Under the pieces are notes generated by a model that was given only the letters and a program-made list of their open reading frames with translations, was not told the origin of the DNA and did no database searches. The translations under genes and the position numbers were made by a program. Positions 2,112-29,495 of a stretch of DNA of 30,447 nucleotides are shown in pieces; positions within the stretch are counted from its first letter, which is position 1; the number at the start of each line of letters is the position of its first letter. Source of the DNA: a virus; IMG/VR virus record IMGVR_UViG_3300042861_000168, positions 1-30,447 of that record. One strand, given 5' to 3'.

Positions 2112-2288
2112 ATGGGAAACAAGATAATAATAGATGAAGAGTCAGAATCTCAAAAGCTATACGAATGGATGCTATCTGATAAAAGAGAGCCAGCACAAAC
2201 ATATTTCTCAAGCGGAGTTATTAGAAATATCGCAAAAGAAATTGAGTTTAGAGAGGAAATGTTTAAAAAAAGTTTGGATATTAAATAA
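2112..2288 (+). CDS. small acidic hypothetical protein, 58 aa
   Basis: Translation from the ATG at 2112 gives 58 residues beginning MGNKIIIDEESESQKLYEW and ending KKSLDIK. It is preceded by AACTTAAAAACTAAAACA, nearly the same A-rich leader found before the ssDNA-binding-like gene at 2326 and the gene at 28440, which supports a real start. The helical, charged sequence (SESQKLYEWMLSDK; AKEIEFREEMFKK) suggests a small helical protein. No family recognised. The -33 box of the next promoter lies inside its 3' end. Confidence 0.6.
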   Translation: MGNKIIIDEESESQKLYEWMLSDKREPAQTYFSSGVIRNIAKEIEFREEMFKKSLDIK

Positions 2289-2302
2289 ATTGTGTATATT
2301 TG
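2274..2302 (+). promoter_or_regulatory. host-type (Bacteroidetes) promoter for the 2326 unit
   Basis: TTG at 2274-2276 and TATATTTG at 2295-2302 are separated by 18 nt, matching the Bacteroidetes primary-sigma pattern TTG-N(17-23)-TAnnTTTG. Transcription should begin a few bases after 2302, giving a leader of about 20 nt. The same arrangement with a near-identical leader occurs at 28388-28419. Confidence 0.8.
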
Positions 2303-2325: not shown

Positions 2326-2673
2326 ATGACTGAAATCAAAGGAACTGTAAAAGTAATCGGAGAAACACAAGTAATATCCGATAAATTCAAAAAACGTGAT
2401 ATTGTAGTAACAATTGAAAACGGAGAATACCCACAACACATTACACTACAATTCACTCAGGATAAATGTAACTTAGTAGATAAGTTAGTAAAAGGCGCTG
2501 ATGCTACTTTTCACATAAATTTACGAGGTAAGGAATATAAAGATAAAGGCGGAGAAACAAGATATTTTAACTCTATCGAATGCTGGAAGATTGATAATGT
2601 TTCTGTTGGACAGTTTCAAGGGGTGGATAATGGCGGGAGTCCAGTAGTTGATTATTCTGATACCCCATTTTAG
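2326..2673 (+). CDS. OB-fold ssDNA-binding-like protein
   Basis: A 115-aa protein that looks like a short phage single-stranded DNA-binding protein of the DUF3127-like type: an OB-fold-like run of strands (IKGTVKVIGETQVISDKFKKRDIVVTI; ITLQFTQDK; ATFHINLRGKEY; TRYFNSIECWKI) over residues 3-90, then a flexible Gly/Asp-rich tail ending DYSDTPF. That acidic tail with terminal Pro-Phe resembles the DDDIPF tip of bacterial SSB, which recruits partner proteins. It follows a good host-type promoter and the shared A-rich leader, as expected for an early replication gene. The sigma-like gene begins two bases after its stop. It is shorter than canonical SSB, so the exact family is uncertain. Confidence 0.7.
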   Translation: MTEIKGTVKVIGETQVISDKFKKRDIVVTIENGEYPQHITLQFTQDKCNLVDKLVKGADATFHINLRGKEYKDKGGETRYFNSIECWKIDNVSVGQFQGVDNGGSPVVDYSDTPF

Positions 2674-2675
2674 TA

Positions 2676-3173
2676 ATGAAAGACGCTATTCTTAAAGAAC
2701 TATTTGAGAATAAGGAGATATACAGAGTAGCAAAGAAATATTGCAACTACGATAATCTTCATGGCGACCTTATCTCCGAACTATACATAACGCTACAAAA
2801 TAAAGAGGATGCTTTCTTTGAACGATTAGATAAAAAGCAGTTATTTCTTTATTGTTGTGGCATTTTGTATTTTAGCTGGAATAGTCCAACAAGTCCATTT
2901 TACAAAAAGTATAGAGCATTTCAGTATAGCGAGTTAAAAGGGTTTGACTTAGCTAATACAGAAGAGGATAAAGATACTTTTTGTGTAGCCTATTGGATAG
3001 ATAAGATTAATAAGAATAGCACAATAACAGATAATAACAGCTTAGTAAAGGTAAGAGTATTCGAGAAGTATATGGAGTTAAAATCATACCGTAAAGTAGG
3101 TGCAGAGTTTAATATCCCATTTAAGACAGTAGAGTACATAGTTAAAATGTTTGTAAACGATATTAAAGAATGA
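2676..3173 (+). CDS. small sigma-factor-like / HTH regulator
   Basis: A 165-aa protein with a plausible but divergent two-domain sigma layout. Residues ~10-42 (ENKEIYRVAKKYCNYDNLHG then DLISELYITL) resemble a sigma region 2 entry helix with its acidic DLxxE motif. Residues ~128-160 (FEKYMELKSYRKVGAEFNIP then FKTVEYIVKMF) form a helix-turn-helix like region 4 (SYRKVGAEFNIPFKTVEYIV). The middle is aromatic-rich and unlike standard region 2. It is in an early-type unit behind the host-type promoter at 2274 and overlaps the next gene by ATGA at 3170. I infer that it may redirect RNA polymerase to the distinct late motifs in this window. It could instead be a generic phage HTH protein that does not bind polymerase. 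Confidence 0.5.
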   Translation: MKDAILKELFENKEIYRVAKKYCNYDNLHGDLISELYITLQNKEDAFFERLDKKQLFLYCCGILYFSWNSPTSPFYKKYRAFQYSELKGFDLANTEEDKDTFCVAYWIDKINKNSTITDNNSLVKVRVFEKYMELKSYRKVGAEFNIPFKTVEYIVKMFVNDIKE

Positions 3174-4309
3174 AAAAAATCTTAGTAGTAACTTCGGAGC
3201 GAATAACTGGTTTAAATTACCACCGACAAATAACACCATTCTTTAATCTTAAAGGATTTGATATTGAGTATAAACGGTTTTTAACATCCGAAGAGGTTTT
3301 AGGCGGTTATTGTGATAACTTTGATTGTGTTAGCTTTTTAAGGTTAATCAATAAGCAAGGTAGAACGGATGAAATGGTAAATTACCTAAAGGCTAAAGGC
3401 ATTAAGATACATTTTGATATTGATGACTACTGGGTATTACCAAGTAACCACGCTTTATTTGAAGGATATAAAAAAGAAAAGATAGCGCAACAAGTAATAG
3501 AGGCTTTAAAAAGTGCTGACTTTGTAACTACTACAACTGATAAACTTGCACAAGTAATTAGACAGCATAATAAGAATATTTATGTACTTCCAAACGCAAT
3601 AGACCCAACACATGAGCAATGGACAAACGCAACACTACCAAGTGATAAGGTAAGATTTGGATATATTGCAGGAGTACACCATGAAAAAGACGCTGAAATA
3701 CTTTACGATAATCTAAACCTGTTATACTTTGAAAAGGAGTTAAAAGGCAAATATCAGATTTGTGCCGCCGGATTTAACATTAGTAAGCATGGCGACAAAC
3801 ACTACGTTAATCCTTATTACCAGTACTTAGAGCAATTGTTTACGAATAACTATAAACACTTACTTAAAGAATATGAGGACTATTTAATGCAGTATATCCC
3901 CGATAATAACTACGATTGGGATGAGATTTATAGAAGATTGTGGGGATTAGATACGGTAAATTATGGCAAGTCTTATAACTTTATTGATGTAAGTTTAATA
4001 CCATTGAGAGAAACATTGTTTAGTAGTTGTAAAAGTCAGTTAAAGGTTATTGAGGCGGGCTTTATGAAAAAGGCGTGTATAGTATCAAATGTACAACCTT
4101 ATACACTTGATTGTAATAGTGATAATAGTATATTGATTGAACCGAATAGAAACGGTAGGGGATGGTATAAGGCTATGAAAAAGCTAATTGAAAATCCTAA
4201 TATGCTATCGGACTTAGGCGAGGCTATGTATGAAACAGTAAAGGATAGATATCACATTGAAACGGTAAATGTAGTTAGAAAACAAATATTTGAACAATGG
4301 CTAAAATAG
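3170..4309 (+). CDS. glycosyltransferase, GT4/GT-B-like
   Basis: A 379-aa cytoplasmic protein with a GT-B-like layout. The N-terminal half has FDIDDYW (82-88), a motif common in phage and cell-surface glycosyltransferases of this type, then ADFVTTTTDKLA (116-127) and VLPNAIDP (139-146), the usual boundary before the C-terminal Rossmann half. That half starts GYIAGVHHEKD (164-174). SLIPLRETLFSSCKSQLKVIEAGFMKKACI (275-304) corresponds to the sugar-nucleotide-binding E-x(6-7)-E region of GT4 enzymes. There is no membrane segment. It opens the sugar-transfer cassette, overlapping the sigma-like gene (ATGA) and the next gene by 13 bp. Donor and acceptor cannot be read from sequence. Confidence 0.8.
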   Translation: MKKILVVTSERITGLNYHRQITPFFNLKGFDIEYKRFLTSEEVLGGYCDNFDCVSFLRLINKQGRTDEMVNYLKAKGIKIHFDIDDYWVLPSNHALFEGYKKEKIAQQVIEALKSADFVTTTTDKLAQVIRQHNKNIYVLPNAIDPTHEQWTNATLPSDKVRFGYIAGVHHEKDAEILYDNLNLLYFEKELKGKYQICAAGFNISKHGDKHYVNPYYQYLEQLFTNNYKHLLKEYEDYLMQYIPDNNYDWDEIYRRLWGLDTVNYGKSYNFIDVSLIPLRETLFSSCKSQLKVIEAGFMKKACIVSNVQPYTLDCNSDNSILIEPNRNGRGWYKAMKKLIENPNMLSDLGEAMYETVKDRYHIETVNVVRKQIFEQWLK

Positions 4310-4953
4310 GAATTGGCGTGACTACTTTCCGTAGACCTGAGATGCTACAAAAGTGTTTAGATAGCATTAGAAAGCATACGTTTATGGATGGAGTAACTAT
4401 CTATGTAGCAGACGATAGTAACGAGCGTAAAGGTGTTGCCTATCGTAAAAACGAATGTTTAAGAGCGTTAAAGGATTGTGATTATATTTTTTTACTGGAT
4501 GATGATGTAGAGATTATAAAAGATGGATGGATTGAGTTTTTTGTAGATGGGTATAAATCGACTTCTGTTAATCATTTTCTATATTTAAACTCAACTCATA
4601 ATATGTATGATAAAAGAGTATTTGCAAGTAAGTATGGAGTATTTACTGTTGGGCATTATAAAGATTGTGGTGGAGTATTTATGTTTATGACAAAAGGATG
4701 CGTAGAAAAAGTTGGTGCATTTAATGAAATTTTTTGTATGTGGGGTTTTGAACACGCTGAATGGAGTATGAGGGCTTGTAATGGGAATAGAAATTTTAAT
4801 ATGTTAGAAGGGACTGAAAATTATATCTACTCCGAAGATTACAGTAACCCTAATCATAAAAGCAGTATAACAAATGAAGAAAAAAATTTGTTATTTAAAA
4901 AAAACTTTCCTAAATTTGCCAAAGGAATAAAATCTATATATTTACCATTATGA
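4297..4953 (+). CDS. glycosyltransferase, GT2/GT-A-like (1)
   Basis: A 218-aa GT-A-fold enzyme. IGIGVTTFRRPEMLQKCLDS (4-23) is the typical GT2 nucleotide-binding start, IYVADDSN (35-42) the next strand, and FLLDDDVEI (65-73) the metal-binding DxD loop. GGVFMF (125-130) and GFEHAEWSMR (150-159) match the acceptor loop and the [ED]D-like catalytic base region. No transmembrane helix is present, so it probably acts on a soluble acceptor or a nucleotide- or lipid-linked sugar at the membrane surface. It is coupled on both sides (13-bp overlap upstream, ATGA downstream). Confidence 0.82.
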   Translation: MAKIGIGVTTFRRPEMLQKCLDSIRKHTFMDGVTIYVADDSNERKGVAYRKNECLRALKDCDYIFLLDDDVEIIKDGWIEFFVDGYKSTSVNHFLYLNSTHNMYDKRVFASKYGVFTVGHYKDCGGVFMFMTKGCVEKVGAFNEIFCMWGFEHAEWSMRACNGNRNFNMLEGTENYIYSEDYSNPNHKSSITNEEKNLLFKKNFPKFAKGIKSIYLPL

Positions 4954-5672
4954 GTTTACGTTTGTTATTTAAGTACACCACACGCTCAAGGCGTTCTAAC
5001 TTTCTAAGAGGCATTGATAGTATTATTGATAACCTTGCAGATAAAGAGAATTATCATATCTATACTACATTTGATGTGGATGACGATAAGATGCGTCCAT
5101 TACCTGAGATAAAAGGAAACCATACATACATAGCAGGAACGAGCAAATCGAAAGTAGATGCTATCAATAGGGACATGGATTTTATCAATGCTAATTATGA
5201 CTGGGATATACTTGTCAATATGAGTGATGATGTGGTGATAACTGAGAAAGGTTTTGATAATATTATTAGGTATTATTTTAATAGTTTAGTTCGTTCGGAA
5301 TCTATGTCAGGTTTTGAGAATACACCCTTTATAGAATTTGTATCAAATGAAGTAGTAAATTTAGACCAAGTAATTCACTTTCCAGATGGAAATAGAGATG
5401 ACCTTTTAACCGTTTCAATTATAGGTAAAGACTATTACAAACGAGATAACTACATTTACAATCCTGAATATAAGAGTTTGTATTGTGATAACGAAGCTAT
5501 GGAAGTAGCAAAGCAAAGAGGTTGTTACAAGTTTGTTAATAAAGTAATATTCAATCATTTGCACCCTGCTTATAACAAGGGTATATTTGACGCACAATAT
5601 CAACATACTGAGAGTTTTGGACATGAAGATTATCAAACATATAAAAGACGCAAAGCAAATGGATTCAGTTAA
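4950..5672 (+). CDS. putative glycosyltransferase, GT-A-like (2)
   Basis: A 240-aa protein starting LRLLFKYTTRSRRSNFLRGI, with an alternating strand/helix pattern like the GT-A fold. ILVNMSDDVVI (87-97) supplies the DD metal-binding loop, and FDVDDDKMRPL (41-51) the earlier acidic loop. The second half (YNPEYKSLYCDNEAMEVAKQ..HLHPAYNKG) resembles the acceptor-side region of phage GT2-like proteins that end in a conserved His-Pro. It starts within an ATGA overlap and ends 14 bp inside the next gene. Assignment is weaker than for the preceding enzyme but supported by context. Confidence 0.68.
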   Translation: MSLRLLFKYTTRSRRSNFLRGIDSIIDNLADKENYHIYTTFDVDDDKMRPLPEIKGNHTYIAGTSKSKVDAINRDMDFINANYDWDILVNMSDDVVITEKGFDNIIRYYFNSLVRSESMSGFENTPFIEFVSNEVVNLDQVIHFPDGNRDDLLTVSIIGKDYYKRDNYIYNPEYKSLYCDNEAMEVAKQRGCYKFVNKVIFNHLHPAYNKGIFDAQYQHTESFGHEDYQTYKRRKANGFS

Positions 5673-6234
5673 GTTATCAATATTAATCCCATCCACTCAT
5701 AGCAGAATGGATATGACCATGAAGCTAACAGATAGATTGTTAGACCAAATAGAATTTAACGATTTAGTAGGAGTAGTTGAAGTTGTTACGCTTTGGGATG
5801 ATGGGGCTAAAAGTATAGGCACTAAAAGAAACGAACTTATCCAAATGGCGAAAGGGGATTACGTTTGCTTTGTTGATTCGGATGATGATATTAGTAGCGA
5901 CTACGTTGAACGATTAATGGAAGGGATTAACTTAGGTGTAGACTGTTGTAGCCTAAAAGGTTGTATCACTTGGGATGGAAAGAATCCTGAGATATTTGAA
6001 CACTCACTAAGATATAGCGAGTATAAAACAACTGAGAACCCTATTAAGTACGAACGATTCCCGAACCATTTGAACTGTATTAAAAAGAGTTTAGTATTTG
6101 ATATTAAATATCCTGAAATATCACATGGCGAAGATACGGATTGGGCAACCCAAGTATTTAAAGCTGGTGTATTAAAGACAGAACATTATATTGATTCAGT
6201 TATTTACCATTATAAATTTATTACGAACAAATGA
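5659..6234 (+). CDS. glycosyltransferase, GT2/GT-A-like (3)
   Basis: A 191-aa enzyme starting at the ATG that puts KLSILIPST at residues 5-13, the normal GT2 beginning. An ATG at 5623 or the TTG at 5587 would extend it but would deepen the overlap with the upstream gene to 50-86 bp. KRNELIQMAKGDYVCFVDSDDD (56-77) is a textbook donor-binding stretch with the DxD at 73-77; HGEDTDWATQVFKAG is the catalytic-base region near the C-terminus. There is no membrane anchor. It overlaps its upstream neighbour by 14 bp and the next by ATGA. Confidence 0.8.
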   Translation: MDSVKLSILIPSTHSRMDMTMKLTDRLLDQIEFNDLVGVVEVVTLWDDGAKSIGTKRNELIQMAKGDYVCFVDSDDDISSDYVERLMEGINLGVDCCSLKGCITWDGKNPEIFEHSLRYSEYKTTENPIKYERFPNHLNCIKKSLVFDIKYPEISHGEDTDWATQVFKAGVLKTEHYIDSVIYHYKFITNK

Positions 6235-7073
6235 AAGGCGCAATAAGTTATAGTCTATTTGGTTACGATAGAGAACGAGCGGATAACTGTTTTGACTTTA
6301 ATAGCTATCTTCGTGGTTTAGCTATCAATATTCGTATGGCTCGTTTAATTTATCCTGAGTGGGATATAATTGTACAAACTGACAAAGCAACCTATGAGGC
6401 ATGGAAAGAGTTATTTGGTGCTTATCCTATTAAGTTAGAAGTACACCAAGACCTAGTGCCATTAACATTAGCAATGTTATGGAGGCTAAGACCATGCTTT
6501 GATAATAACTATACTCATGTTCTTTGTAGAGATTTAGATAGCCCTTTAACTTATAGAGAACGTCAAGCGGTAGAGTACTGGATTAACAGAGATAAGGCAG
6601 CACACGCAATAACTGATAGCGTAAGCCATGATGTGCCAATGCTTGGTGGTATGATTGGCTTTAGACCTCAATACTTTAGAGATAAGGTAGGAGTAAGTAC
6701 ATGGGGGGACTTGATAAGAATTAGACCTAACTACCTTTGGAATCAAAAAGGGAGCGACCAGACCTTTCTAAGAGATATAGTTTATCCTAAGTTTGCGCAA
6801 CAAGGGACTGATAGTATTACTCAGCACTATGTTTTAGGGATGCCGAATAGCTTTTTAAGTGATTACCATAATAAGATACAAGATTTAGAACTACCTATAC
6901 CTTTTGAGTTAAAGGAGAGTAACGATACTTGTGGACATATTGGAAGTGCTGGGGCTTATAATGTGGCGTTAGAAAAATTCCTTAGGAAGTATCACGATAA
7001 ATTTGTAGATTTGCATTCAGCAGAAGAATCCTATAAAGATATATTTTATTGGAGATTAAATAATGAATTTTAA
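6231..7073 (+). CDS. putative glycosyltransferase with DxD motif (4)
   Basis: A 280-aa protein beginning MKGAISYSLFGYDRERADNC. It contains THVLCRDLDSPLTYRER (95-111): a hydrophobic strand ending in a DxD motif (D101-L-D103), as in nucleotide-sugar-dependent transferases of the GT8/GT32-like group. MLGGMIGFRPQYF (137-149) and GSDQTFLRDIVYPKF look like acceptor-site and C-terminal catalytic segments, and LGMPNSFL with HIGSAGA follow. No membrane segment. The length and DxD position fit a complete enzyme. It begins in an ATGA overlap and is followed directly by a 58-aa ORF. Confidence 0.72.
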   Translation: MKGAISYSLFGYDRERADNCFDFNSYLRGLAINIRMARLIYPEWDIIVQTDKATYEAWKELFGAYPIKLEVHQDLVPLTLAMLWRLRPCFDNNYTHVLCRDLDSPLTYRERQAVEYWINRDKAAHAITDSVSHDVPMLGGMIGFRPQYFRDKVGVSTWGDLIRIRPNYLWNQKGSDQTFLRDIVYPKFAQQGTDSITQHYVLGMPNSFLSDYHNKIQDLELPIPFELKESNDTCGHIGSAGAYNVALEKFLRKYHDKFVDLHSAEESYKDIFYWRLNNEF

Positions 7074-7250
7074 ATGAACGGAACTGTAATAGATATTGAT
7101 GGCTTGTCGGTTAAAGTTATCCCTATTGATTTAGAGGATAGCACCGACAAAGCACATCTACTTCAAATAACAGATGGACACAAAATAATAACTTTAAGCA
7201 TATCATATGGCAGAATCACAGATGAAACGGTACATAGTTGTAAGCACTAA
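7074..7250 (+). CDS. small ORF inside the sugar cassette, 58 aa
   Basis: Its ATG follows the upstream stop codon with no gap (TAA-ATG). The product starts MNGTVIDIDGLSVKVIPIDL and ends with HSCKH; it overlaps the next gene by 44 bp in another frame. The repeated short strands (TVIDIDGLSVKVIPI; ITDGHKIITLSI) suggest a compact beta fold. No family recognised. Perfect stop-start spacing favours real translation; the long overlap with the next gene argues for caution. Confidence 0.45.
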   Translation: MNGTVIDIDGLSVKVIPIDLEDSTDKAHLLQITDGHKIITLSISYGRITDETVHSCKH

Positions 7251-7953
7251 CAACAACTCCGATTATTATTTTTACCTACCTTACATTGAAAAGGCATGGA
7301 ATAGTTATGGATGGGATTTAGTTGTAATGATTACAGATGACGTAGACGTAAAAACACTAAAGACTAACAACCCGAATACATTAATTTGTAGGTTACCAAA
7401 CATTGAAGGAGTACGCAAAGAAAGTATTGCACAAGCTGGTAGGTTATACGCTGCTAATTATATAATTGGTAACGATTTAATTATGACAAGTGATATGGAT
7501 TTATTACCTTTGTCTAATTACTGGAATCCTAATGTATTTGATGTAACAGTTTACGGACACGACTTAACAGACTTTACTTATTATCCAATGGGATATACTG
7601 CAATGAGAGCAGAAGATTGGCGACACTTTATGAAGCTAACAAACGATACTAAAGCAGATTTAGAACGTGATTGTAACGAGTATGCCTACATGGTTAAGTC
7701 AGATGAATGGGAGCAATGGTGGAACTTTGATTGGCGAATGTTAACAGACCGTTTAACACACGCTAAAATAGTTCACAAACATAGAGGGCGACAAAGTAAC
7801 GGCTTTGCTTATGGTAGGATTGATAGGGGGAATAGCTTACAGTTAATAGAAAAACCTTGGATTGATTTACATGGAGAAAATAATAATGTTATGCATCCTG
7901 ACAAACTTAATAAATTTATAACCTTATTTGAATCAGTACATGGAAAACTTTAG
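7207..7953 (+). CDS. putative glycosyltransferase with DxD motif (5)
   Basis: A 248-aa protein (an ATG at 7222, giving MKRYIVVSTNN, is an equally good start). It begins with a Rossmann-like strand YIVVSTNNN, followed by WDLVVMITDDVDV and by NDLIMTSDMDLLPL (89-102), where D96-M-D98 is the metal/nucleotide-sugar motif. The later YGHD..YYPMGYTAMRAEDW and HKHRGRQSNG segments suit an acceptor site. No transmembrane helix. The 14-bp overlap with the next gene keeps it in the same operon. Confidence 0.7.
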   Translation: MAESQMKRYIVVSTNNNSDYYFYLPYIEKAWNSYGWDLVVMITDDVDVKTLKTNNPNTLICRLPNIEGVRKESIAQAGRLYAANYIIGNDLIMTSDMDLLPLSNYWNPNVFDVTVYGHDLTDFTYYPMGYTAMRAEDWRHFMKLTNDTKADLERDCNEYAYMVKSDEWEQWWNFDWRMLTDRLTHAKIVHKHRGRQSNGFAYGRIDRGNSLQLIEKPWIDLHGENNNVMHPDKLNKFITLFESVHGKL

Positions 7954-8497
7954 AGCAAAATTTACACCACCGAATAACGACCACAGTTACTATCCTTTAC
8001 TTTACTTAGCATTACAAACAACTAAGCAAGGTGGAGTAATTGAGATGGGAACGGGACATGGTAGCACCAAACTATTACATGACTATTGTTTAGTTAAAGG
8101 ACGTAACCTATATTCGTATGATGAAAAAGAAGAGTGGGGGTCTAAGTTCTACGATTTAAGAACCGATAAACATTTAGTAGAAGTAGTAAGTGACTGGGAT
8201 AGTGTTTGTTATACTCATAAAGATAGTGATGTTAGTGTAGTATTTATAGACCATGCGCCAGGTGAAAGACGCAAAGAAGATATATTAAACTTTAAAGATA
8301 TTAACGGTATATTAGTATGCCACGATACAGAGCCAGCAGCCGACTATGGTTATCAAATGCGCCAACACTTTAGTAAGTTCAAATACGTTGTAGAGGTGCA
8401 AACTAACGGAGCATGGGCAACAGCATTAAGCAATACAATTGATATTACTAAATGGGATGGGCAGAAATTTAGCGAATATGTATGCACAAAAGACTAA
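7940..8497 (+). CDS. class I SAM-dependent methyltransferase (Methyltransf_24-like)
   Basis: A 185-aa enzyme read from the ATG at 7940 (a TTG start at 7928 would add four residues). GGVIEMGTGHGSTKLL (31-46) is AdoMet motif I. LYSYDEKEEW (57-66) ends the second strand with an acidic residue. VSVVFIDHAPGERRKED (98-114) corresponds to the motif IV region with D104, and ILVCHDTEPAADYG (124-137) to the catalytic region seen in Methyltransf_24 proteins that cluster with glycosyltransferases. By context I infer methylation of a glycan or of the glycosylated target, not of DNA. The first late-type promoter motif overlaps its 3' end. Confidence 0.72.
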   Translation: MENFRAKFTPPNNDHSYYPLLYLALQTTKQGGVIEMGTGHGSTKLLHDYCLVKGRNLYSYDEKEEWGSKFYDLRTDKHLVEVVSDWDSVCYTHKDSDVSVVFIDHAPGERRKEDILNFKDINGILVCHDTEPAADYGYQMRQHFSKFKYVVEVQTNGAWATALSNTIDITKWDGQKFSEYVCTKD

Positions 8498-8512
8498 AAT
8501 TTATATATAATA
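8483..8512 (+). promoter_or_regulatory. late-type promoter motif, copy 1
   Basis: TGCACA at 8483-8488, 13 nt, then TATATATAATA at 8502-8512, directly abutting the ATG at 8513. It is one of five copies with identical spacing. It opens the small-gene/terminase unit. Confidence 0.6.
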
Positions 8513-9154: not shown

Positions 9155-9551
9155 AGCCGATATAGATTTTAAGAAGTTATTAGGAGGCAGACCAGCTATA
9201 TTCGAAACTCCAGAAGATATGTCTAAGGCTATTCAATTATACTTTGAAAGCACTAAGAACAACTCAGGAAAATACAGACCTACTATTGAGGGAATGGTAT
9301 TTCATATAGGATTAGGGTCAAGACAATCACTTAAGCAATATGCTGATAGAGAGGGGTTTAATGACGTGGTTAAGGCTGCGAAGTCTTTTATCAAGTCTTG
9401 TTATGAAGAAAACCTTTATGGGTTCGCTTGGGCTGGTGCTTCATTTGCTTTAAGAAACATTGGTAAAGAGGACTGGAAAGATGAGATTACCGAGAATAGC
9501 AACCAAATAATAACTAAAGTAGAGATAGTTGAAAAGAAACGAGATGAATGA
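9147..9551 (+). CDS. terS: terminase small subunit
   Basis: A 134-aa protein with the arrangement of gp3-type DNA-packaging small subunits. GGRPAIFETPEDMSKAIQLY (13-32) leads into the N-terminal helical DNA-binding domain; PTIEGMVFHIGLGSRQSLKQYADREGF supplies its HTH-like helices; a helical oligomerisation region (DVVKAAKSFIKSCYEENLYG then FAWAGASFALRNIG) follows; and there is a charged tail. Its position immediately before the large subunit (ATGA overlap at 9548) confirms the role: recognising phage DNA and feeding it to the motor. Confidence 0.85.
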   Translation: MAKADIDFKKLLGGRPAIFETPEDMSKAIQLYFESTKNNSGKYRPTIEGMVFHIGLGSRQSLKQYADREGFNDVVKAAKSFIKSCYEENLYGFAWAGASFALRNIGKEDWKDEITENSNQIITKVEIVEKKRDE

Positions 9552-10747
9552 AGTTAGAAACCACACCAGTATTTACGCAAAACTATGGTTCTGAAAAGAA
9601 GATAGTAATTAATAGAGGTGGTACACGTTCAAGTAAAACCGTTTCAGTAGTTCAGCAATGTGTATTGTGGCTTATTAGTGGTCAGCTTACACGAGATACA
9701 TATATTCCTAAAGGCGTTTGGAGTACTGTCAGAAAGTACTCAACTACATTAGACGCAACAGTTATTCGAGATTTTGAAGAAGAACTAAACAAGCATAAGA
9801 TATTTAACCTTATCCAACACAATAAGACTAAAAAGACTTATAAGTATGGAGATAGGTTAGTGGAGTTTATTGGAGCAGATGACGAGCAAAAGCTAAGAGG
9901 TGCTAAAAGGAATATACTTTACTGTAATGAGGGCAACGAGTTAGACTTTAAAAAAGAGTTCTTTCAGTTGCTTATGAGAACTGAGGATAAGGTTATTATA
10001 GATTTCAACCCTGACGATGAGAACATTTGGATTAACACAGAGTTAGAACAAAAGAGGTTATTTGAGAAAGGCGATGTTGATGTTATTGTTTCCACCTATA
10101 AAGATAATACCTTTTTACCTAAAAGTTTAGTAAGTGAGATTGAGTACTTAGAAAAGACCGACCCTGAATTTTGGAAGATATACGGATTAGGGCAGTATGG
10201 CAAGTTGTTTGGTTTAATATTCGAGGACTATAAAGTAGTAGATAAGATACCTGATACAGCAACACTAATTGCATACGGTCAGGATTTCGGATTTACTAAT
10301 GACCCTTCAGCAATGGTAGGTGTATGGAAACAAGATGGGGAGTTATGGATTAAGGAGTTAATATACCAACGAGGATTAACAAACCAAGACTTAGCTATCA
10401 AGTATAGAGATTTAGGCATTCAATCGCATGAAGAAATAATAGCCGATAGCGCAGAGCCTAAAAGCATTCAGGAGTTAACTAACCAACAATTTAGAGTTAA
10501 TGGAGCAGAAAAAGGAGCGGATAGTATAAAAAACTCAATAGATATATTAAAACGCTATAAACTAAATATAACGCAAGATAGTTCTAACTTGATAAAAGAG
10601 TTAAGAACTTATAAATGGATGCTTGATAAGACAGGAAACAGTATAAATAAACCAGTAGATTATAACAACCATGCTATTGATGCTATTAGATATGTAGCAC
10701 TTAATAAGTTAGGGCATAATAATAATGGCGTTTACCACATAGCATAA
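9548..10747 (+). CDS. terL: terminase large subunit
   Basis: A 399-aa packaging ATPase/nuclease. The Walker A-like loop is GGTRSSKT (24-31) and the Walker B region ILYCNEGNE (123-131). FFQLLMRTEDKVIIDFNPD (138-156) is the coupling region common in Terminase_3-type enzymes. The RNase H-like nuclease domain has its three acidic residues at D246 (YGQDFGFTNDPS), D300 (IIADSAEP) and D378 (HAIDAIRY). Length and motif order are complete. The enzyme drives DNA into the prohead through the portal (22367) and cuts the concatemer. The gene ends just before late-type promoter copy 2. Confidence 0.95.
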   Translation: MKLETTPVFTQNYGSEKKIVINRGGTRSSKTVSVVQQCVLWLISGQLTRDTYIPKGVWSTVRKYSTTLDATVIRDFEEELNKHKIFNLIQHNKTKKTYKYGDRLVEFIGADDEQKLRGAKRNILYCNEGNELDFKKEFFQLLMRTEDKVIIDFNPDDENIWINTELEQKRLFEKGDVDVIVSTYKDNTFLPKSLVSEIEYLEKTDPEFWKIYGLGQYGKLFGLIFEDYKVVDKIPDTATLIAYGQDFGFTNDPSAMVGVWKQDGELWIKELIYQRGLTNQDLAIKYRDLGIQSHEEIIADSAEPKSIQELTNQQFRVNGAEKGADSIKNSIDILKRYKLNITQDSSNLIKELRTYKWMLDKTGNSINKPVDYNNHAIDAIRYVALNKLGHNNNGVYHIA

Positions 10748-10752
10748 TTCTT

Positions 10753-10783
10753 TTGCACAAATGACTTACTTTTATATATAATA
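10753..10783 (+). promoter_or_regulatory. late-type promoter motif, copy 2 (tail operon)
   Basis: TTGCACA at 10753-10759, 13 nt, TATATATAATA at 10773-10783, then GT and the ATG at 10786. Read as -35/-10 hexamers, TTGCAC and TATAAT are 18 nt apart. It lies in the 38-bp gap between the terminase and the tail genes. Confidence 0.65.
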
Positions 10784-17283: not shown

Positions 17284-19002
17284 ATGGCAAAAAAGGAATT
17301 AGCATTTGAAGCGAGTGTAGATATTGGCAATGGTGCTAAGTCTATTAAGGCACTTAAAAACGATTACAAAGAGGCTCAACAAGAGTTAAATGGTTTAACT
17401 GTTGGCACTAAGGAATACGTTAAGCAGTTAGAAAAATTAGGAGGTATTAAGGATAGTATTGGCGACCTTAATGCTGAGATTGCAGCGTTTAACCCTGAGG
17501 GGAAAGTACAAGCGTTTGGTAATGTTATTGGAGGTTTAGCAAGTGGATTCCAAGCAGCACAAGGAGCAGCGGCATTATTTGGAGCAGAGGGTGAAGAGTT
17601 GCAAAAGACTTTATTAAAGGTACAAGCGGCGTCCGCTTTTGCAGATGGTATAAAAGGTATTGCAGGTTTAAAAGACCAATTTATAGTTTTAGGAAATGTA
17701 ATTAAGGCTAATCCTTTGTTATTAATTGCTACAATTATTGCAGGGATTGGTACGGCTTTATTTGCTTTAAAAGATAAGATAGGAATAGTAGGAGATGCTT
17801 TCGATGCTATTGGAGATGCTATTGGATTTGTTACTGATAAGATAAAAGAGTTTACCGATTGGATAGGGCTATCTACGTTTGCTATTGATGAACAAGCAGA
17901 GGCAACAGTAAATGCAGCTAAAAAAACTCAAGAGGCATTAACGCAAAGATATGACGATGAAATAGCACTTGCAAAAGCAGCAGGAAAGAACACCGAAGAG
18001 CTTGAAAAGAAAAAGCAAGTAGCAATTTTAGAGAGTGCTAAAACTCAAATTGAAGCCTTAAAGAGTGTAGCTGCTGCAAATGGGGAGTGGACAGAAGAAC
18101 AAATAGAGCAACTAAAAACATTAGGCAAGTCTATACATGATGCCTCAATGGCTATTAAAGTATCAAATGAAGAAGCAAGAGCAGAAGAACTTGGTAAGGT
18201 AGTAGAATTTAATAAGAAGAAAGAAGCAGAAGAAGAAGCACACCAAAAACACTTAGACGATATTCGTAGAACGTGGAATGAATCTTATGAAGCAGCAAGA
18301 GAAAAGGCGTATTTCGATAAAGTAGAAAAAGATAGACAGCAAGAATTAGCAGACCAAACAATAACAAACGATACTTTATTTGAAGGGGAGCAAGAGCAAC
18401 AAGCAAATTATGATGCTTATTTTAAAGACCTTCATATATTAACTGAGCAAGAGAGATATGCTTTTTCTATGGAGATTGCACAAGCCTCTGCAAACAGTAT
18501 GCAGGCTTTATCCGATGCAGTATTTGCTATTAAGTTAGGCAACTTAGAAAAAGGCTCTAAAGCTGAATTAGAAACTGCAAAGAAACAGTTTAAGATTAAT
18601 AAGGCTTTAGCAATTACACAAACTGTTATATCTACAATTATGGGTATAACAAATGCTTTGTCGGCTCAATCGGTAGTGCCTGAGCCATTCGGAACTATTC
18701 TAAAAGTTGCTAATGCTGTTGCTGTTGGTATTGCTGGAACTGCTAATACTGCTAAGATTGCCTCACAACAATTTAATAGTGGTGGAGGCGGTGGTGTAAC
18801 GGCTGCTAATATTTCAAGTGCTGGTGGTGGAGTAAATATAGCACCTCCGAGTACAGGCAGCACATTACTTAATTCAGATGGTACAATAAAGAAACAAGGA
18901 ACAAACGCACAACCAATGGTTAAGGCTTATGTAACGGAAACTGATATAAGCAGTACACAAAAAAGAGTAAACAGTATTGAGGAGAAGTCACAAATTAAAT
19001 AG
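17284..19002 (+). CDS. tape measure protein
   Basis: A 572-aa protein with the hallmarks of a tape measure: an Ala/Gly-rich helical N-terminus (FGNVIGGLASGFQAAQGAAA, 77-96), a hydrophobic segment at ~145-163 (LLLIATIIAGIGTALFALK), a long charged coiled coil over ~205-430 rich in Glu, Lys, Gln and Ala, a second hydrophobic Ala-rich region (LAITQTVISTIMGITNALSA), and a flexible Gly/Ser-rich end (NSGGGGGVTAANISSAGGGV). At roughly 1.5 angstrom per residue it would specify a tail near 85 nm. It closes the tail operon; promoter copy 3 follows. It lies downstream of the frameshifting chaperone, though the tip genes come in between, which is atypical. Confidence 0.85.
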   Translation: MAKKELAFEASVDIGNGAKSIKALKNDYKEAQQELNGLTVGTKEYVKQLEKLGGIKDSIGDLNAEIAAFNPEGKVQAFGNVIGGLASGFQAAQGAAALFGAEGEELQKTLLKVQAASAFADGIKGIAGLKDQFIVLGNVIKANPLLLIATIIAGIGTALFALKDKIGIVGDAFDAIGDAIGFVTDKIKEFTDWIGLSTFAIDEQAEATVNAAKKTQEALTQRYDDEIALAKAAGKNTEELEKKKQVAILESAKTQIEALKSVAAANGEWTEEQIEQLKTLGKSIHDASMAIKVSNEEARAEELGKVVEFNKKKEAEEEAHQKHLDDIRRTWNESYEAAREKAYFDKVEKDRQQELADQTITNDTLFEGEQEQQANYDAYFKDLHILTEQERYAFSMEIAQASANSMQALSDAVFAIKLGNLEKGSKAELETAKKQFKINKALAITQTVISTIMGITNALSAQSVVPEPFGTILKVANAVAVGIAGTANTAKIASQQFNSGGGGGVTAANISSAGGGVNIAPPSTGSTLLNSDGTIKKQGTNAQPMVKAYVTETDISSTQKRVNSIEEKSQIK

Positions 19003-19030
19003 CACACTATAACTAAATAAATATATAATA
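19000..19030 (+). promoter_or_regulatory. late-type promoter motif, copy 3 (protease)
   Basis: TAGCACA at 19000-19006 (one mismatch), 13 nt, AATATATAATA at 19020-19030 (one mismatch), then GT and the ATG at 19033. It occupies most of the 30-bp gap after the tape measure gene. Confidence 0.55.
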
Positions 19031-19627: not shown

Positions 19628-19658
19628 TTGCACACTACTATTAAAAGTATATATAATT
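19628..19658 (+). promoter_or_regulatory. late-type promoter motif, copy 4 (scaffold/capsid)
   Basis: TTGCACA at 19628-19634, 13 nt, TATATATAATT at 19648-19658. Unlike the other copies, this one leaves 17 nt (TATAAATAACTTATAAAA) before the ATG at 19676, so its transcript could carry a short untranslated leader. It drives the genes with the highest expected demand. Confidence 0.65.
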
Positions 19659-20345: not shown

Positions 20346-21305
20346 ATGGCAGGATTTACTAACAGTTCGTTAACGGACTACATTGAACAAAACAAGGGCG
20401 ACCTTATCCTTGAAGCGGTAGCAGGAGCACCAACATTGACTTACCCTATTGATATTATTCAAGGGATTAAGTCGAGTCAAGCATTTAATTTTTTAGCTGT
20501 TACAGCACCGTTTCAAACTGGAACTACTTGTGCATTTAACAGTTCAGGAGATGTTACATTTACTCAGTCTACAATCTCTGTAACCGATGTAAAAGTACAA
20601 AATCAATTTTGCCCTAAAACACTTGAGAGCAAATACACTCAAAAGTTTTTACGTCCAGGAGCGCAACAAGAAGAGTTACCAGTTGGCAAATACATTACTG
20701 ACCAAGTAAACTTGTTGATTAAAGCACAAATGGAACAGGCATTATGGCAAGGTGATACTGCTTTAACTAACTTACCTAACTTGAAAATTTTTGATGGTTG
20801 GTTGAAGAAAATTGATGCAGGTTCTCCAGTAATTGCAACTGCAACGGCAGACGTTACAACTGGTAATATTATCAGTATCGTTGATAATATGTACACATTG
20901 TTAGGTACTAACTTGCCAGCTATTATGAGCCGTCCTGACTTAGTATTGGTTATGGGTAAAGATACTTTCCAATTGTTAGTATTAGCATTGCGTAACTTAA
21001 ACTACTTCCATATCGAAGTAAACCAATCGTTACAATCTTGGGAATTAACATTCCCTACATACGGATTGAAAGTTATCGGAGTAGATGGTTTGTCAAACAT
21101 TGCAGGTACTCAAGCAACTAAGAAAGACCGTATGGTATTGACTTATTGGGATAACTTAGTATTTGGTACTGACTTACAATCTGATTATGAAAACTACGAA
21201 ATGTGGTATTCTAAAGATGACAGAGTTATCAAGTTATCAGCAGAGTGGAAAGCTGGAACAGCAGTAAAGAAAACTACTGAGGTTATCACTTACAAAAATT
21301 CTTAA
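20346..21305 (+). CDS. major capsid protein
   Basis: A 319-aa protein starting AGFTNSSLTDYIEQNKGDLI, with FCPKTLESKYTQKFLRPGAQ, LLIKAQMEQALWQGD and the C-terminal GLKVIGVDGLSN, YWDNLVFGTD and KDDRVIKLSAEWKAGTAV, consistent with an HK97-fold shell protein (spine helix, then A-domain, then P-domain strands) of the Bacteroidetes phage type. It follows the scaffold gene, begins after TTTAAAACATG (an A-rich leader), and is closed by a strong terminator, as expected for the most abundant virion protein. Confidence 0.85.
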   Translation: MAGFTNSSLTDYIEQNKGDLILEAVAGAPTLTYPIDIIQGIKSSQAFNFLAVTAPFQTGTTCAFNSSGDVTFTQSTISVTDVKVQNQFCPKTLESKYTQKFLRPGAQQEELPVGKYITDQVNLLIKAQMEQALWQGDTALTNLPNLKIFDGWLKKIDAGSPVIATATADVTTGNIISIVDNMYTLLGTNLPAIMSRPDLVLVMGKDTFQLLVLALRNLNYFHIEVNQSLQSWELTFPTYGLKVIGVDGLSNIAGTQATKKDRMVLTYWDNLVFGTDLQSDYENYEMWYSKDDRVIKLSAEWKAGTAVKKTTEVITYKNS

Positions 21306-21934: not shown

Positions 21935-21965
21935 TTGCACAAAATCCAAATAATTATATATAATA
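21935..21965 (+). promoter_or_regulatory. late-type promoter motif, copy 5 (portal operon)
   Basis: TTGCACA at 21935-21941, 13 nt, TATATATAATA at 21955-21965, then GTAT and the ATG at 21970. It sits right behind a terminator, as expected of a promoter that starts a new unit. Confidence 0.68.
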
Positions 21966-25445: not shown

Positions 25446-25957
25446 ATATAACAAGTCAGGTAAGTCAGTCAATAACAAATGGAGTAACGGATAAAGCACC
25501 AAGTGAGGATGCCGTTTATGATGCTTTAGCTTTAAAGCTATCAAAGTGCCACACATTAAATATGAATCATTCCGCTTTAAATCCAGCCGATTCTACTTCT
25601 TACTTTTTTGCCGCTAACCAAGCAACAGCACAAACATCAAGCACTGCATTAAGGCGTAAGCCAGCAGGAATAACTGGACATATTTATTCAGTTACTATGC
25701 AGATTACTATTGCCACTTCATTAGGAACGTCAGAAACAGCAACATTTAAAATTAACAACGTAACACAAGGAACAAGTACAACGGTATCAACTGGACTGGT
25801 TTATACGGCTACTGGTTTATCTTTACAGTGGGATTTGGGAACTCCATTTGCGGTTACAAAAGGGGATTTAATAGAATGCCAAATAGATATGCCAGCATTT
25901 GCGACAAATCCAGTAAACGTTATTCATTATGTAGATTTGATTATTTACGGATTTTAA
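25436..25957 (+). CDS. fibre-like structural protein, 173 aa
   Basis: A 173-aa protein. ITNGVTDKAPSEDAVYDALA (13-32) is a short trimeric coiled-coil/hinge motif that recurs in phage tail fibres. The rest is an all-beta domain (TGHIYSVTMQITIATSLGTS; TATFKINNVTQGTSTTV; GLSLQWDLGTPFAVTKGDLI; VIHYVDLIIYGF). It is likely a minor fibre or decoration protein. The -33 box of the next promoter lies in its last codons. Confidence 0.65.
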   Translation: MDINITSQVSQSITNGVTDKAPSEDAVYDALALKLSKCHTLNMNHSALNPADSTSYFFAANQATAQTSSTALRRKPAGITGHIYSVTMQITIATSLGTSETATFKINNVTQGTSTTVSTGLVYTATGLSLQWDLGTPFAVTKGDLIECQIDMPAFATNPVNVIHYVDLIIYGF

Positions 25958-25966
25958 TTATATTTG
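25937..25966 (+). promoter_or_regulatory. host-type promoter for the SGNH lipoprotein gene
   Basis: TTG at 25937-25939 and TATATTTG at 25959-25966, 19 nt apart: a full Bacteroidetes primary-sigma promoter inside the late region. The ATG at 25971 is only 4 nt beyond it, so the transcript would be leaderless or nearly so. Confidence 0.7.
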
Positions 25967-25970
25967 CTGA

Positions 25971-27446
25971 ATGAAAAAACTAATATTATCACTAATCGTT
26001 TTAGCCTTTTTAGGATGTCAAAAAGAGCAGATTGAGCCACAAGGTGCGGAGCAATCAATAGTATTAACGCAATCTTTCCGTACTTATTCAAGTCCAGCAC
26101 AAGCATTATTTGATAAATGGGATTCGTTAGGTTGTGGAGCGTCAGCACAAGATAAAGACAAATATTCCGAAGCAATTGATTATCTAATTGCAAAAGGTGT
26201 TTGGGATTCGTTGGACTGCGTTTTTAAGTTTGATGTTCACAACAAAACAGCAGCTTTAGTTAATTGGAAAAACCCACAACATATAGCAACTATTTCAGGC
26301 GATTATGCTGGTAGTTTTATTCCATACAAAGGGTTTGATGGCAACGGTACAACATTTAAAATTAATACTAATTACAATCCTTACAATAGTACTTTATACA
26401 CGCTAAACAACTGTATGAAGGGGATTTATATTAACTCAAATGAAACAACGGCAAGGGTAGATATGAGTTCAGAAAGCGCAACTAATAACGGATTAAATGC
26501 TTTCTTACAGAATAACAACACTCCTAAAAGTATTTTAACTTCTACAAATAATGCGAGTGATGCCTTATACACCCCAATTTTACAAGCGTATGGATGGCAC
26601 ATTTCAACTCGTGCAAACGCAAACGAATACGAAAGTTTAAAGAATGGCGTAAGTATTACAAAGCTACCAAAAGCAAAAGTAAGTACAAGTATTCCTAATC
26701 AAAACGTATATTTGTTTTGTCGTAATGTAAACGGTGTATTTAGTGCCTATTCAAACAAGATTATTTCAGGTGCTTTCTTTGGTGCTAAATGTAACCAGTT
26801 AGAGGTTATTAATGGTTTGAATATTTGGGGGCGTTACGCTGGTAGTGTACCAAGTAAATTATTAATGATTGATGGTAATAGTTTAACTAAGGCAGCACAT
26901 TGGACTGATAGAACATTAAGAAATTACGGAACTTCAAACTTTGTAAACGAGGTTTGTCAGGCTAAAGTAGGAATAAGAACTAATGAAATGTACTATGCTT
27001 TCCCGAATACATTGGGTAAGGTTAAGTCAGATATTTATACTAAGAAGATTTTAGTAGTTTGGGAATTAACAAATGATTTCTATTTAGGCGGTCAAAATGT
27101 AGACAGTGCGTATAACCATTTAGTTGATTATTGCAATCAGGCAAAAGCTATACATGGTAACGATTTAATTATTTTAGTTGGGACTTGTTTGCCTCGTGAT
27201 TATATGACACCAGCATTAAGACAAGAACTTAACACACGAATAAGAAACAATTATACGTCATTTGCAACTGATTTAATAGACGTTGGTGGCGATAGTATCG
27301 TAGGAGTTGATAGTTATGGAGTTAATGGAGTAGGAGAAAGAAATACAACTTATTATGGTGCGGATAAAGTACACATGACTATTACTGGTTATAACTATGT
27401 AGCAGATAATTACTTTTATCCTAAAATTGACTTTTATTTGAATTAA
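25971..27446 (+). CDS. predicted surface lipoprotein with SGNH hydrolase domain
   Basis: A 491-aa protein with a type II signal peptide: MKKLILSLIVLAFLGC, Cys16 after LG, then QKEQIE, close to the QKDDE-like surface-export signal of Bacteroidetes lipoproteins. Residues ~85-270 form a beta-rich module (FIPYKGFDGNGTTFKINTNY; CMKGIYINSNETTARVDMSS) like those of phage fibre proteins. Residues ~295-491 form an SGNH hydrolase: DGNSLT (301-306, Ser304 nucleophile), KVGIRTNE (Gly334), VWELTND (363-369, Asn368) and DKVHMT (465-470, Asp465/His468). This fold commonly removes acetyl or acyl groups from glycans. It may trim host surface glycan or block superinfection (lysogenic-conversion style), or be virion tail protein; the signal peptide favours the cell surface. 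It has its own host-type promoter. Confidence 0.8.
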   Translation: MKKLILSLIVLAFLGCQKEQIEPQGAEQSIVLTQSFRTYSSPAQALFDKWDSLGCGASAQDKDKYSEAIDYLIAKGVWDSLDCVFKFDVHNKTAALVNWKNPQHIATISGDYAGSFIPYKGFDGNGTTFKINTNYNPYNSTLYTLNNCMKGIYINSNETTARVDMSSESATNNGLNAFLQNNNTPKSILTSTNNASDALYTPILQAYGWHISTRANANEYESLKNGVSITKLPKAKVSTSIPNQNVYLFCRNVNGVFSAYSNKIISGAFFGAKCNQLEVINGLNIWGRYAGSVPSKLLMIDGNSLTKAAHWTDRTLRNYGTSNFVNEVCQAKVGIRTNEMYYAFPNTLGKVKSDIYTKKILVVWELTNDFYLGGQNVDSAYNHLVDYCNQAKAIHGNDLIILVGTCLPRDYMTPALRQELNTRIRNNYTSFATDLIDVGGDSIVGVDSYGVNGVGERNTTYYGADKVHMTITGYNYVADNYFYPKIDFYLN

Positions 27447-28262: not shown

Positions 28263-28408
28263 TGGAACTAAAACTGAAAACAATAGTTGAGTATGTTTAT
28301 CGTAAGAAAGGCGTAGTAATACAGAACATTATACCACCTCGCAATCAGCACGAAACAATGCTAATGAATACAATGTATAACTTTATTTTGCAAAATCGAA
28401 ATAAATAG
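28262..28408 (+). CDS. small basic ORF with GTG start, 48 aa
   Basis: GTG at 28262 uses the last base of the holin stop. The product starts MELKLKTIVEYVYRKKGVVI (GTG read as Met) and ends FILQNRNK. Tight coupling and coherent amphipathic sequence favour translation, but no family is recognised. The -33 element of the next promoter lies within its 3' end. Confidence 0.45.
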   Translation: MELKLKTIVEYVYRKKGVVIQNIIPPRNQHETMLMNTMYNFILQNRNK

Positions 28409-28419
28409 TTATATATTTG
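28388..28419 (+). promoter_or_regulatory. host-type promoter for the 28440 unit
   Basis: TTG at 28388-28390 and TATATTTG at 28412-28419, 21 nt apart, fit the Bacteroidetes consensus. The leader ACTAAAAACTAAAAC follows, almost identical to the one at 2309, so the two promoter-leader units are close copies. Confidence 0.75.
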
Positions 28420-28439: not shown

Positions 28440-29495
28440 ATGGCTAATAAACGTAACTTAGGCGAACCTGATAGCTTGAATAGACCAAGACTAAACGAGG
28501 ACGAAGTAGATTTAATTAAAAATTATCGAATACAAGTATCTCTTTTAGAAGATGAATGTGAGCAAGCTGGAATAGATAAAAGCACAATCAAACATTATTG
28601 GTATAAGTCTAAGGTATTTTCAATATTTGCAAAGCCTAATCAAAAGAGCTTATTAGACCTTAAAAATCAATTAATGAAGGATATGGACAAACACAGTCCG
28701 AAATATCCTACAATCAAAAGAAAACCACTAAAAGACGCACATTGTTTAGTTATTGACCCTTGTGATATTCATATAGGTAAATTAGGCAGCGAATTAGAAA
28801 CTGGCGAAAAGTACAATACAAGTATAGCAATAAAGCGAGTACATGAAGGAGTTGATGGGTTACTTCAAAAGGCACAAGGATTTAATTTAGATAAGATAGT
28901 TTTAATTATTGGTAACGATATATTGCATACTGATAATACTAAGCGAACTACAACAAGCGGAACGCCTCAAGATACTGATGGAATGTGGTATGATAACTTT
29001 CTATTGGCACGTAGATTATACGTTGATATTATTGAAAAATTAACATCGGTTGCCAATGTTCATGTAATACATAACCCATCAAACCACGATTTTATGGCTG
29101 GTTGGTACTTAGCAGAATCACTACAAAATTGGTTTAGAGTATCTAAAAATATTACATTTGATATTGATATGAAGCATAGGAAGTACTTTGTTTATCACGA
29201 TAATTTAATAGGTAGTACGCATGGCGATGGTGCTAAAGATTCAGATTTGCCACAGTTAATGTCTATTGAGTGTAAGCATTGGAGTAAAGCAAAACATAGA
29301 TATATCTATACACACCATGTACACCATAAGAACGCAAAAGATAGAATAGGTGTAACAATAGAAAGTTCACGTTCTGCAAGTGGCTCAGATGGATGGCACG
29401 ATAGAAATGGTTATAAAGGTGTACCTAAAGCAATTGAAGCGTATTTACACCACCCAAAACAAGGTCAAATAGCACGTTTTACCCACATATTTTAA
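28440..29495 (+). CDS. calcineurin-like metallophosphoesterase with N-terminal HTH-like region
   Basis: A 351-aa protein. The C-terminal ~250 residues contain the five metallophosphatase blocks: DPCDIHIGK (106-114; D109, H111), IIGNDILHTDN (156-166; GND), HNPSNHDF (211-218; N215-H216-D217), STHGDG (259-264) and YTHHVHHK (290-297). The N-terminal ~65 residues (RLNEDEVDLIKNYRIQVSLL; IDKSTIKHYWYKSKVFSIFA) are helical and look like an HTH. Related phage proteins pair the same enzyme core with an HTH; the substrate could be nucleic acid or a phosphorylated metabolite. First gene of a unit with a host-type promoter, so probably early. Confidence 0.85.
   Translation: MANKRNLGEPDSLNRPRLNEDEVDLIKNYRIQVSLLEDECEQAGIDKSTIKHYWYKSKVFSIFAKPNQKSLLDLKNQLMKDMDKHSPKYPTIKRKPLKDAHCLVIDPCDIHIGKLGSELETGEKYNTSIAIKRVHEGVDGLLQKAQGFNLDKIVLIIGNDILHTDNTKRTTTSGTPQDTDGMWYDNFLLARRLYVDIIEKLTSVANVHVIHNPSNHDFMAGWYLAESLQNWFRVSKNITFDIDMKHRKYFVYHDNLIGSTHGDGAKDSDLPQLMSIECKHWSKAKHRYIYTHHVHHKNAKDRIGVTIESSRSASGSDGWHDRNGYKGVPKAIEAYLHHPKQGQIARFTHIF

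Follow-up and report, generated by a model that had tools for sequence, protein, structure and literature searches.

The stretch of DNA analysed here (hereafter the window) comprises positions 1 to 30,447 of the IMG/VR virus record IMGVR_UViG_3300042861_000168, and its feature of interest is an open reading frame of 165 amino acids whose position and surroundings are given in Table 1. This frame starts 3 nt past the stop codon of a gene for a phage single-strand DNA binding protein (SSB), and its own stop codon forms an ATGA overlap with the ATG at 3170 of the next gene, a glycosyltransferase. Because the codon differences between this frame and its copy in the related contig L008 amount to 23 synonymous and 1 non-synonymous, the frame encodes a maintained protein that is under purifying selection.

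In Bacteroidota, the host promoter consensus is TTTG / TAnnTTTG, whose downstream box spans -12 to -5 (PMC6847099, PMC9723704). Strict matches to this pattern number four on the + strand of the window and none on the - strand, when 0.33 occurrences are expected per strand. The initial annotation had assigned the 165-aa protein to an early-type unit read from a host-type promoter, and this assignment agrees with a site, TTG-N18-TATATTTG, that stops 23 nt short of the SSB gene. The promoter type, together with the relatives of the SSB and the terminase in flavophages, points to a host among the Bacteroidota. Further promoter-like sites of the host type (TTG...TATATTTG) occur at 25937-25966, before a gene at 25971, and at 28388-28419, before an exonuclease gene at 28440. 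Between the sigma-like gene and the terminase, a run of glycosyltransferase-like genes occupies 3170-8497, and its order is kept in two other loci (L118 and L121); these genes may serve to modify the virion or the DNA with sugars. In L121 (positions 674-2371) the sigma-like domain and the downstream glycosyltransferase form a single in-frame fusion of 566 aa; together with the ATGA overlap in the window, this marks the neighbourhood of the two genes as a lasting one.

Table 1. Positions of the genes, protein domains and promoter-like sites within the window
Feature	Position	Strand	Remarks
Host-type (Bacteroidota sigma-A-like) promoter	2274..2302	+	TTG-N18-TATATTTG; 5' of SSB gene
Phage single-strand DNA binding protein (SSB)	2326..2673	+	PHROG 4932, E 1e-25; first gene of the sigma-like gene's unit
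Candidate late sigma factor gene	2676..3173	+	165 aa; profile, fold and codon evidence
Sigma-2-like domain, residues 1-89	2676..2942	+	VIA Z up to 8.8; HMMER alignment to SigR, SigH
Sigma-4-like HTH domain, residues about 112-165	3009..3170	+	VIA sigma-4 matches, residues 89/96-165
Late promoter-like site, ATGCACA-N13-TATATATAATA	8482..8512	+	abuts ATG 8513 of a small gene; kept in L008
Late promoter-like site, exact	10753..10783	+	2 nt before ATG 10786; kept in L007, L008
Late promoter-like site, 2 mismatches	19000..19030	+	2 nt before ATG 19033; kept in L006, L009
Late promoter-like site, 1 mismatch	19628..19658	+	17 nt before ATG 19676; kept in L006, L009
Late promoter-like site, exact	21935..21965	+	4 nt before ATG 21970; kept in L006, L009, L010

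Sequence and predicted fold of the 165-aa protein

When searched on its own against Pfam, the 165-aa protein yields weak matches to Sigma70_r2 (E 0.12, residues 14-47) and to HTH_28 (E 0.014), and it is the sole Sigma70_r2 match when the window is searched in all six frames. Since its score of 12.6 bits fails the curated cut-off of PF04542 (Sigma-70 region 2; 24 bits), we describe the protein as one that works like an ECF sigma factor and do not file it as a member of PF04542. The region-2-like helix, DLISEL, occupies residues 31-36; D31, L32 and E35 are invariant in the first family alignment, and D31 and L32 are nearly so in the wider one. This helix holds the DL.(Q/E) motif of region 2, which HMMER aligns to the DLVQE of SigR and SigH, and which in ECF sigma factors contacts the polymerase clamp. 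The family signature, TSPFYKKYR (residues 72-80), falls at the position of region 2.3/2.4, and its SPF.KKY stretch is an insert relative to SigR in the HMMER alignment.

A profile built from 21 family members and run against 177,635 PDB sequences returned ECF sigma factors as its top two matches, namely region 2 of SigR (E 0.0025) and both domains of Mycobacterium tuberculosis SigH (E 0.018), and nine of the 21 members match PHROG 1740, 'RNA polymerase sigma factor', at best with an E-value of 1.2e-7. Two AlphaFold models, of moderate confidence (pTM only 0.48-0.52), show two helical domains and, between them, a loose linker that is itself unreliable (pLDDT under 50). In Foldseek comparisons of both models with the PDB, sigma factors made up nearly all of the top 16-18 matches, with ECF sigmas first, at weak E-values (best 0.05-0.12); VIA placed residues 1-89 on sigma-2 domains, with Z-scores of up to 8.8 that are middling for helical bundles, and residues from about 89 to 165 on sigma-4 domains. 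Among the neighbours in a viral fold library are entries called 'sigma-70 region 2' and 'RpoE sigma24 homolog', and the ECF sigma of the phiEco32-like Cronobacter phage GAP52 was reached in the viral fold search at an E-value of only 0.9.

The predicted fold has the layout of an ECF factor, with sigma-2, linker and sigma-4 and without sigma-1.1 and sigma-3. Because the domain order, the sequence profile and the named viral neighbours agree, it is very likely that the 165-aa protein has a sigma fold. The initial annotation had proposed a region-2-like helix near the N-terminus and an HTH near the C-terminus, and both are borne out, the one by DLISEL and the weak Sigma70_r2 match and the other by HTH_28 and the sigma-4 fold matches; in the fold comparison that it suggested as a check, the model falls among sigma factors, ECF sigmas leading.

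Homologs in related phages

Relatives of the window phage were reached through the portal gene; a first scan gave 550 portal relatives, and ten longer contigs were fetched. A sigma-like homolog lies upstream of the terminase, at 22% identity or less, in all eight of the long related contigs that reach this region. In the 19-kb contigs G013 and G016 no terminase was found, so that both probably end short of the region of the sigma gene. Apart from near-identical copies, homologs are about 17-32% identical to the 165-aa protein, and a wider search with the family alignment recovered 18 further members that carry the TSPFYKKY signature and the C-terminal HTH, most of them next to structural genes that belong to this type of phage. 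By sequence comparison, the sigma-like gene belongs to the core genes of the phage group. Its product diverges much faster than those of its neighbours: the sigma-like protein of L118 (positions 2343-2843) is 32% identical to that of the window, as against 73% for the terminase and 50-61% for the flanking glycosyltransferases.

Searched as a single sequence, the 165-aa protein gave only near-identical copies and, in a methylase-like protein that is unrelated, one match of 39 residues that was set aside as chance. Three relatives found through the SSB (L012-L014) proved to be other phage types in which no sigma-like gene adjoins the SSB.

A distant syntenic relative of the window phage is the Nonlabens phage P12024L, whose gp35 gene is likewise located upstream of that for the terminase; the unit to which it belongs follows a host-type promoter at 20428. 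The gp35 protein passes the Sigma70_r2 cut-off, at 25.2 bits, and matches the family profile of the 165-aa protein with an E-value of 2e-4.

Two-box motifs at late gene starts

The window contains two exact copies of TTGCACA-N13-TATATATAATA, which occurs in none of 100 shuffles, and when up to three mismatches are permitted there are five sites (with 1, 0, 2, 1 and 0 mismatches) against an expectation of 0.26. All five lie on the + strand; their ends are 0, 2, 2, 4 and 17 nt from the ATG that follows, and the TATATATAATA box starts 11, 13, 13, 15 and 28 nt before it; by chance, a gene start lies 10-30 nt downstream of about 1.4% of positions, both strands counted. The distinct family of candidate late promoters that had been noted from the sequence thus holds up under these counts, and in a shuffle test the value observed for the window was reached in one of 200 shuffles. 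Among the genes so preceded are one that comes after the terminase (10786), the head maturation protease (19033), one that sits between the protease and a structural protein (19676) and one that precedes the portal gene (21970). A simple EM motif search recovered no motif even in the window; gapped-pair counting and ortholog-anchored alignments did. Within IMG/VR, exact copies of the motif were confined to near relatives, plus two unrelated single matches that we took as chance.

L008 retains both of its motif sites despite a replaced terminase. In this contig (positions 8400-9760, corresponding to 9548-10747 of the window) the large subunit of the terminase has been swapped for an unrelated terminase-like protein of 400 aa, and the flanking genes and late promoter sites are nearly identical to those of the window. 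The only match in L118, GTGTACA-N13-TATATTTAATA with three mismatches, lies in the gap orthologous to the window site at 8482.

In P12024L, an unbiased tally of gapped word pairs in the regions before genes yielded another motif, AAACAAA-N14-CGTTAATA, with seven sites when 0.4 are expected and with an observed value that none of 200 shuffles reached. All seven are on the + strand, at the starts of gp01, gp05, gp08, gp37, gp42, gp45 and gp46, which belong to late or structural blocks; the second box starts 12 nt before the annotated ATG at six sites and 11 nt at the seventh, and at nearly all of them 4 nt separate the motif from the ATG. Its AAAC...CGTT layout resembles that of bacterial ECF promoters, for which a CGT box has been noted (PMC9723704). 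A scan of IMG/VR for this motif followed by ATG returned 13 stretches, in all but two of which it stands at gene starts with the same spacing; the two exceptions (L146 and L147), where the site precedes only a frame of 6-14 codons, were taken as chance. Those contigs found by the motif that reach the region carry relatives of gp35, at 49-92% identity.

In a sister clade (G007 and G013-G019), TTGTGAAATT or TTGCAAC is followed by a spacer and then by ACATTTAC 4-6 nt before the ATG. This motif precedes the protease, the pre-portal gene and others that are orthologous to the late genes of the window; gene-anchored alignments show that both boxes are kept and that the spacer varies, and G018 has six sites on the + strand and none on the - strand. 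A distinct class of putative promoter thus stands before late genes in gene-carrying genomes of three kinds, those of the window, of P12024L with its relatives and of the sister clade.

No convincing motif family was recovered in G004 or G005, both of which carry the ortholog, and no clear one in the wider loci L119-L135. In the loci of G004 and G005 (L100-L103), TATATATACAAATA lies directly before start codons of genes at the scaffold position and of pre-portal genes (e.g., G004 reversed, 15707 and 17944), and these few sites possibly represent a fourth promoter type. Two flavophages without an annotated protein of this kind gave no motif signal, their observed values being reached in 94 and 35 of 200 shuffles. 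The co-occurrence that the initial annotation had offered as a check is therefore found: the gene is present in every long relative with the region, and gene-bearing lineages have two-box late motifs of their own; neither this check nor the fold comparison counts against the proposal. Its pairing of this protein with this motif gains support from the lineage-specific motifs that accompany the gene, and comparison across genomes favours the 165-aa protein as the factor that would directly read TTGCACA-N13-TATATATAATA.

A candidate early-to-late switch

Our main reading, to which we assign a probability of about 0.78, is that the 165-aa protein is an ECF-like sigma factor of the phage, made early, that directs host RNA polymerase to late promoters. 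The fold, its conservation in the lineage, the motif, the motif's position and the matching arrangement of other motifs in relatives are all computed from the genomes, and from them we infer binding to RNA polymerase, a direct match of protein and motif, the timing and the start of transcription. Early in infection, host polymerase with its own sigma-A would transcribe the unit of SSB and sigma-like gene; later, the phage sigma would bind the host core polymerase and bring it to TTGCACA-N13-TATATATAATA, mostly at structural and packaging genes, with the sigma-4 HTH reading TTGCACA and the sigma-2 domain reading the TATATATAATA box.

Because at four of the five window sites this box begins 11-15 nt ahead of the ATG, transcription may start on the start codon or within a few bases of it, giving leaderless or near-leaderless late mRNAs. 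If the rule for Flavobacterium johnsoniae (box at -12 to -5) applies, a box 12 nt before the ATG, as in P12024L and at most sister-clade sites, would make the A of the ATG position +1. The spacing thus suggests late mRNAs that are leaderless or nearly so; in F. psychrophilum, 5.5% of mRNAs are leaderless (PMC9723704). As to the broadest version of this proposal, a widespread and fast-diverging family of ECF-like sigmas in Bacteroidota-type phages, with late promoter codes that re-evolved by lineage at constant genes, promoters fused to start codons and an entire late regulon that is leaderless in hosts that seldom make such mRNAs, we see even odds.

It is also conceivable, if unlikely, that the sigma-like/HTH protein acts elsewhere, for example against the host, and that the motif is read by a host ECF factor or a modified sigma-A. 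Several ECF sigmas exist in Flavobacteria, and the sister-clade box TACATTTA is so close to the host sigma-A box TAnnTTTG (consensus in PMC6847099) that host polymerase with sigma-A alone might serve that clade. However, neither TATATATAATA of the window nor CGTTAATA of P12024L has the TTTG of sigma-A, and lineage-specific motifs at orthologous late genes are more readily explained by a phage factor that diverges than by a host factor that stays fixed. A sigma-fold gene is retained in all long relatives that include the region.

Less probable still is an HTH activator of late operons whose resemblance to sigma-2 is superficial. Chance matches do occur among helical bundles, and VIA also paired the C-terminal domain with many HTH regulators, including those of the HetR and LysR types; but the order and extent of both domains are those of a sigma, sigmas lead both the profile and the fold searches, DL..E is conserved and gp35, the syntenic protein, exceeds the cut-off of Sigma70_r2. 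That the motif might be a signal for translation or RNA processing at start codons, and no promoter, we regard as very improbable. It does lie immediately 5' of start codons, and Bacteroidota initiate translation by the identity of the upstream sequence instead of a Shine-Dalgarno signal (PMC6847099). Yet the spacing is fixed at 13-14 nt, at most sites the boxes begin 31-35 nt ahead of the ATG, a layout like that of -35 and -10 elements if the ATG is near +1, and the sequence is specific and confined to a few operon heads, with one window site 17 nt from its ATG.

If the 165-aa protein is indeed a late sigma factor, it offers an account of how a large group of environmental phages passes from early to late transcription, a switch for which the literature searched describes no mechanism in this group. 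The family would form a natural series of sigmas and matching promoters, with at least three motif types, for studying how specificity evolves, and its factors and promoters could become orthogonal expression pairs for Bacteroidota. Should late mRNAs begin at the start codon, a phage sigma would be tied to leaderless translation without Shine-Dalgarno signals.

Known systems share parts of this arrangement. One is gp35 of P12024L and P12024S (Inhavirus), annotated merely as containing Sigma-70 region 2, which has the same gene order, the same place upstream of the terminase and the same kind of late regulon, but aligns at an identity of only about 17%, has no TSPFYKKY insert and goes with another motif. 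The ECF sigmas SigH, SigR, SigL and RpoE, which give the best PDB matches, likewise consist of sigma-2, linker and sigma-4 with DL..E; unlike the 165-aa protein, SigR and SigH lack the SPF.KKY insert at region 2.3/2.4, and no anti-sigma gene was recognised beside the sigma-like gene. In phage T4, late promoters have a TATA-like box, TATAAATA, and the small sigma-like late factor gp55 brings host polymerase to them; gp55 has no domain that reads a -35 element and needs gp33 and the gp45 clamp. The 165-aa protein resembles it as a small sigma-like protein for late promoters, and differs in having a sigma-4-like HTH, just as the window motif has a -35-like box.

The closest precedent is gp36 of phiEco32 and its relatives (phages 7-11 and SU10), an ECF-type sigma of the phage for middle and late genes (PMC4281155, PMC4331800). 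It is alike in role, a small factor working with host RNA polymerase, and there too a few well-conserved phage promoters precede late genes and the sigma gene is read from host-type promoters. The phiEco32 group is, however, unrelated to that of the window, with its Bacteroidota-type host; it has an anti-sigma, gp73, whereas none was identified in the window's phage; and its promoters have in common a single short motif, tAATGTATAtA, located 6-8 nt before the site where transcription starts (PMC4281155), in contrast to the two boxes of the window, which keep a fixed spacing and lie almost on the start codon. Our literature search found no paper on the sigma-like family or its promoters. Phage ECF sigmas for late genes are already known, and viral databases label distant relatives 'sigma-70'; what is new is the family with its regulons, a promoter code that changes by lineage at the same genes, and the geometry of a promoter set upon the start codon.
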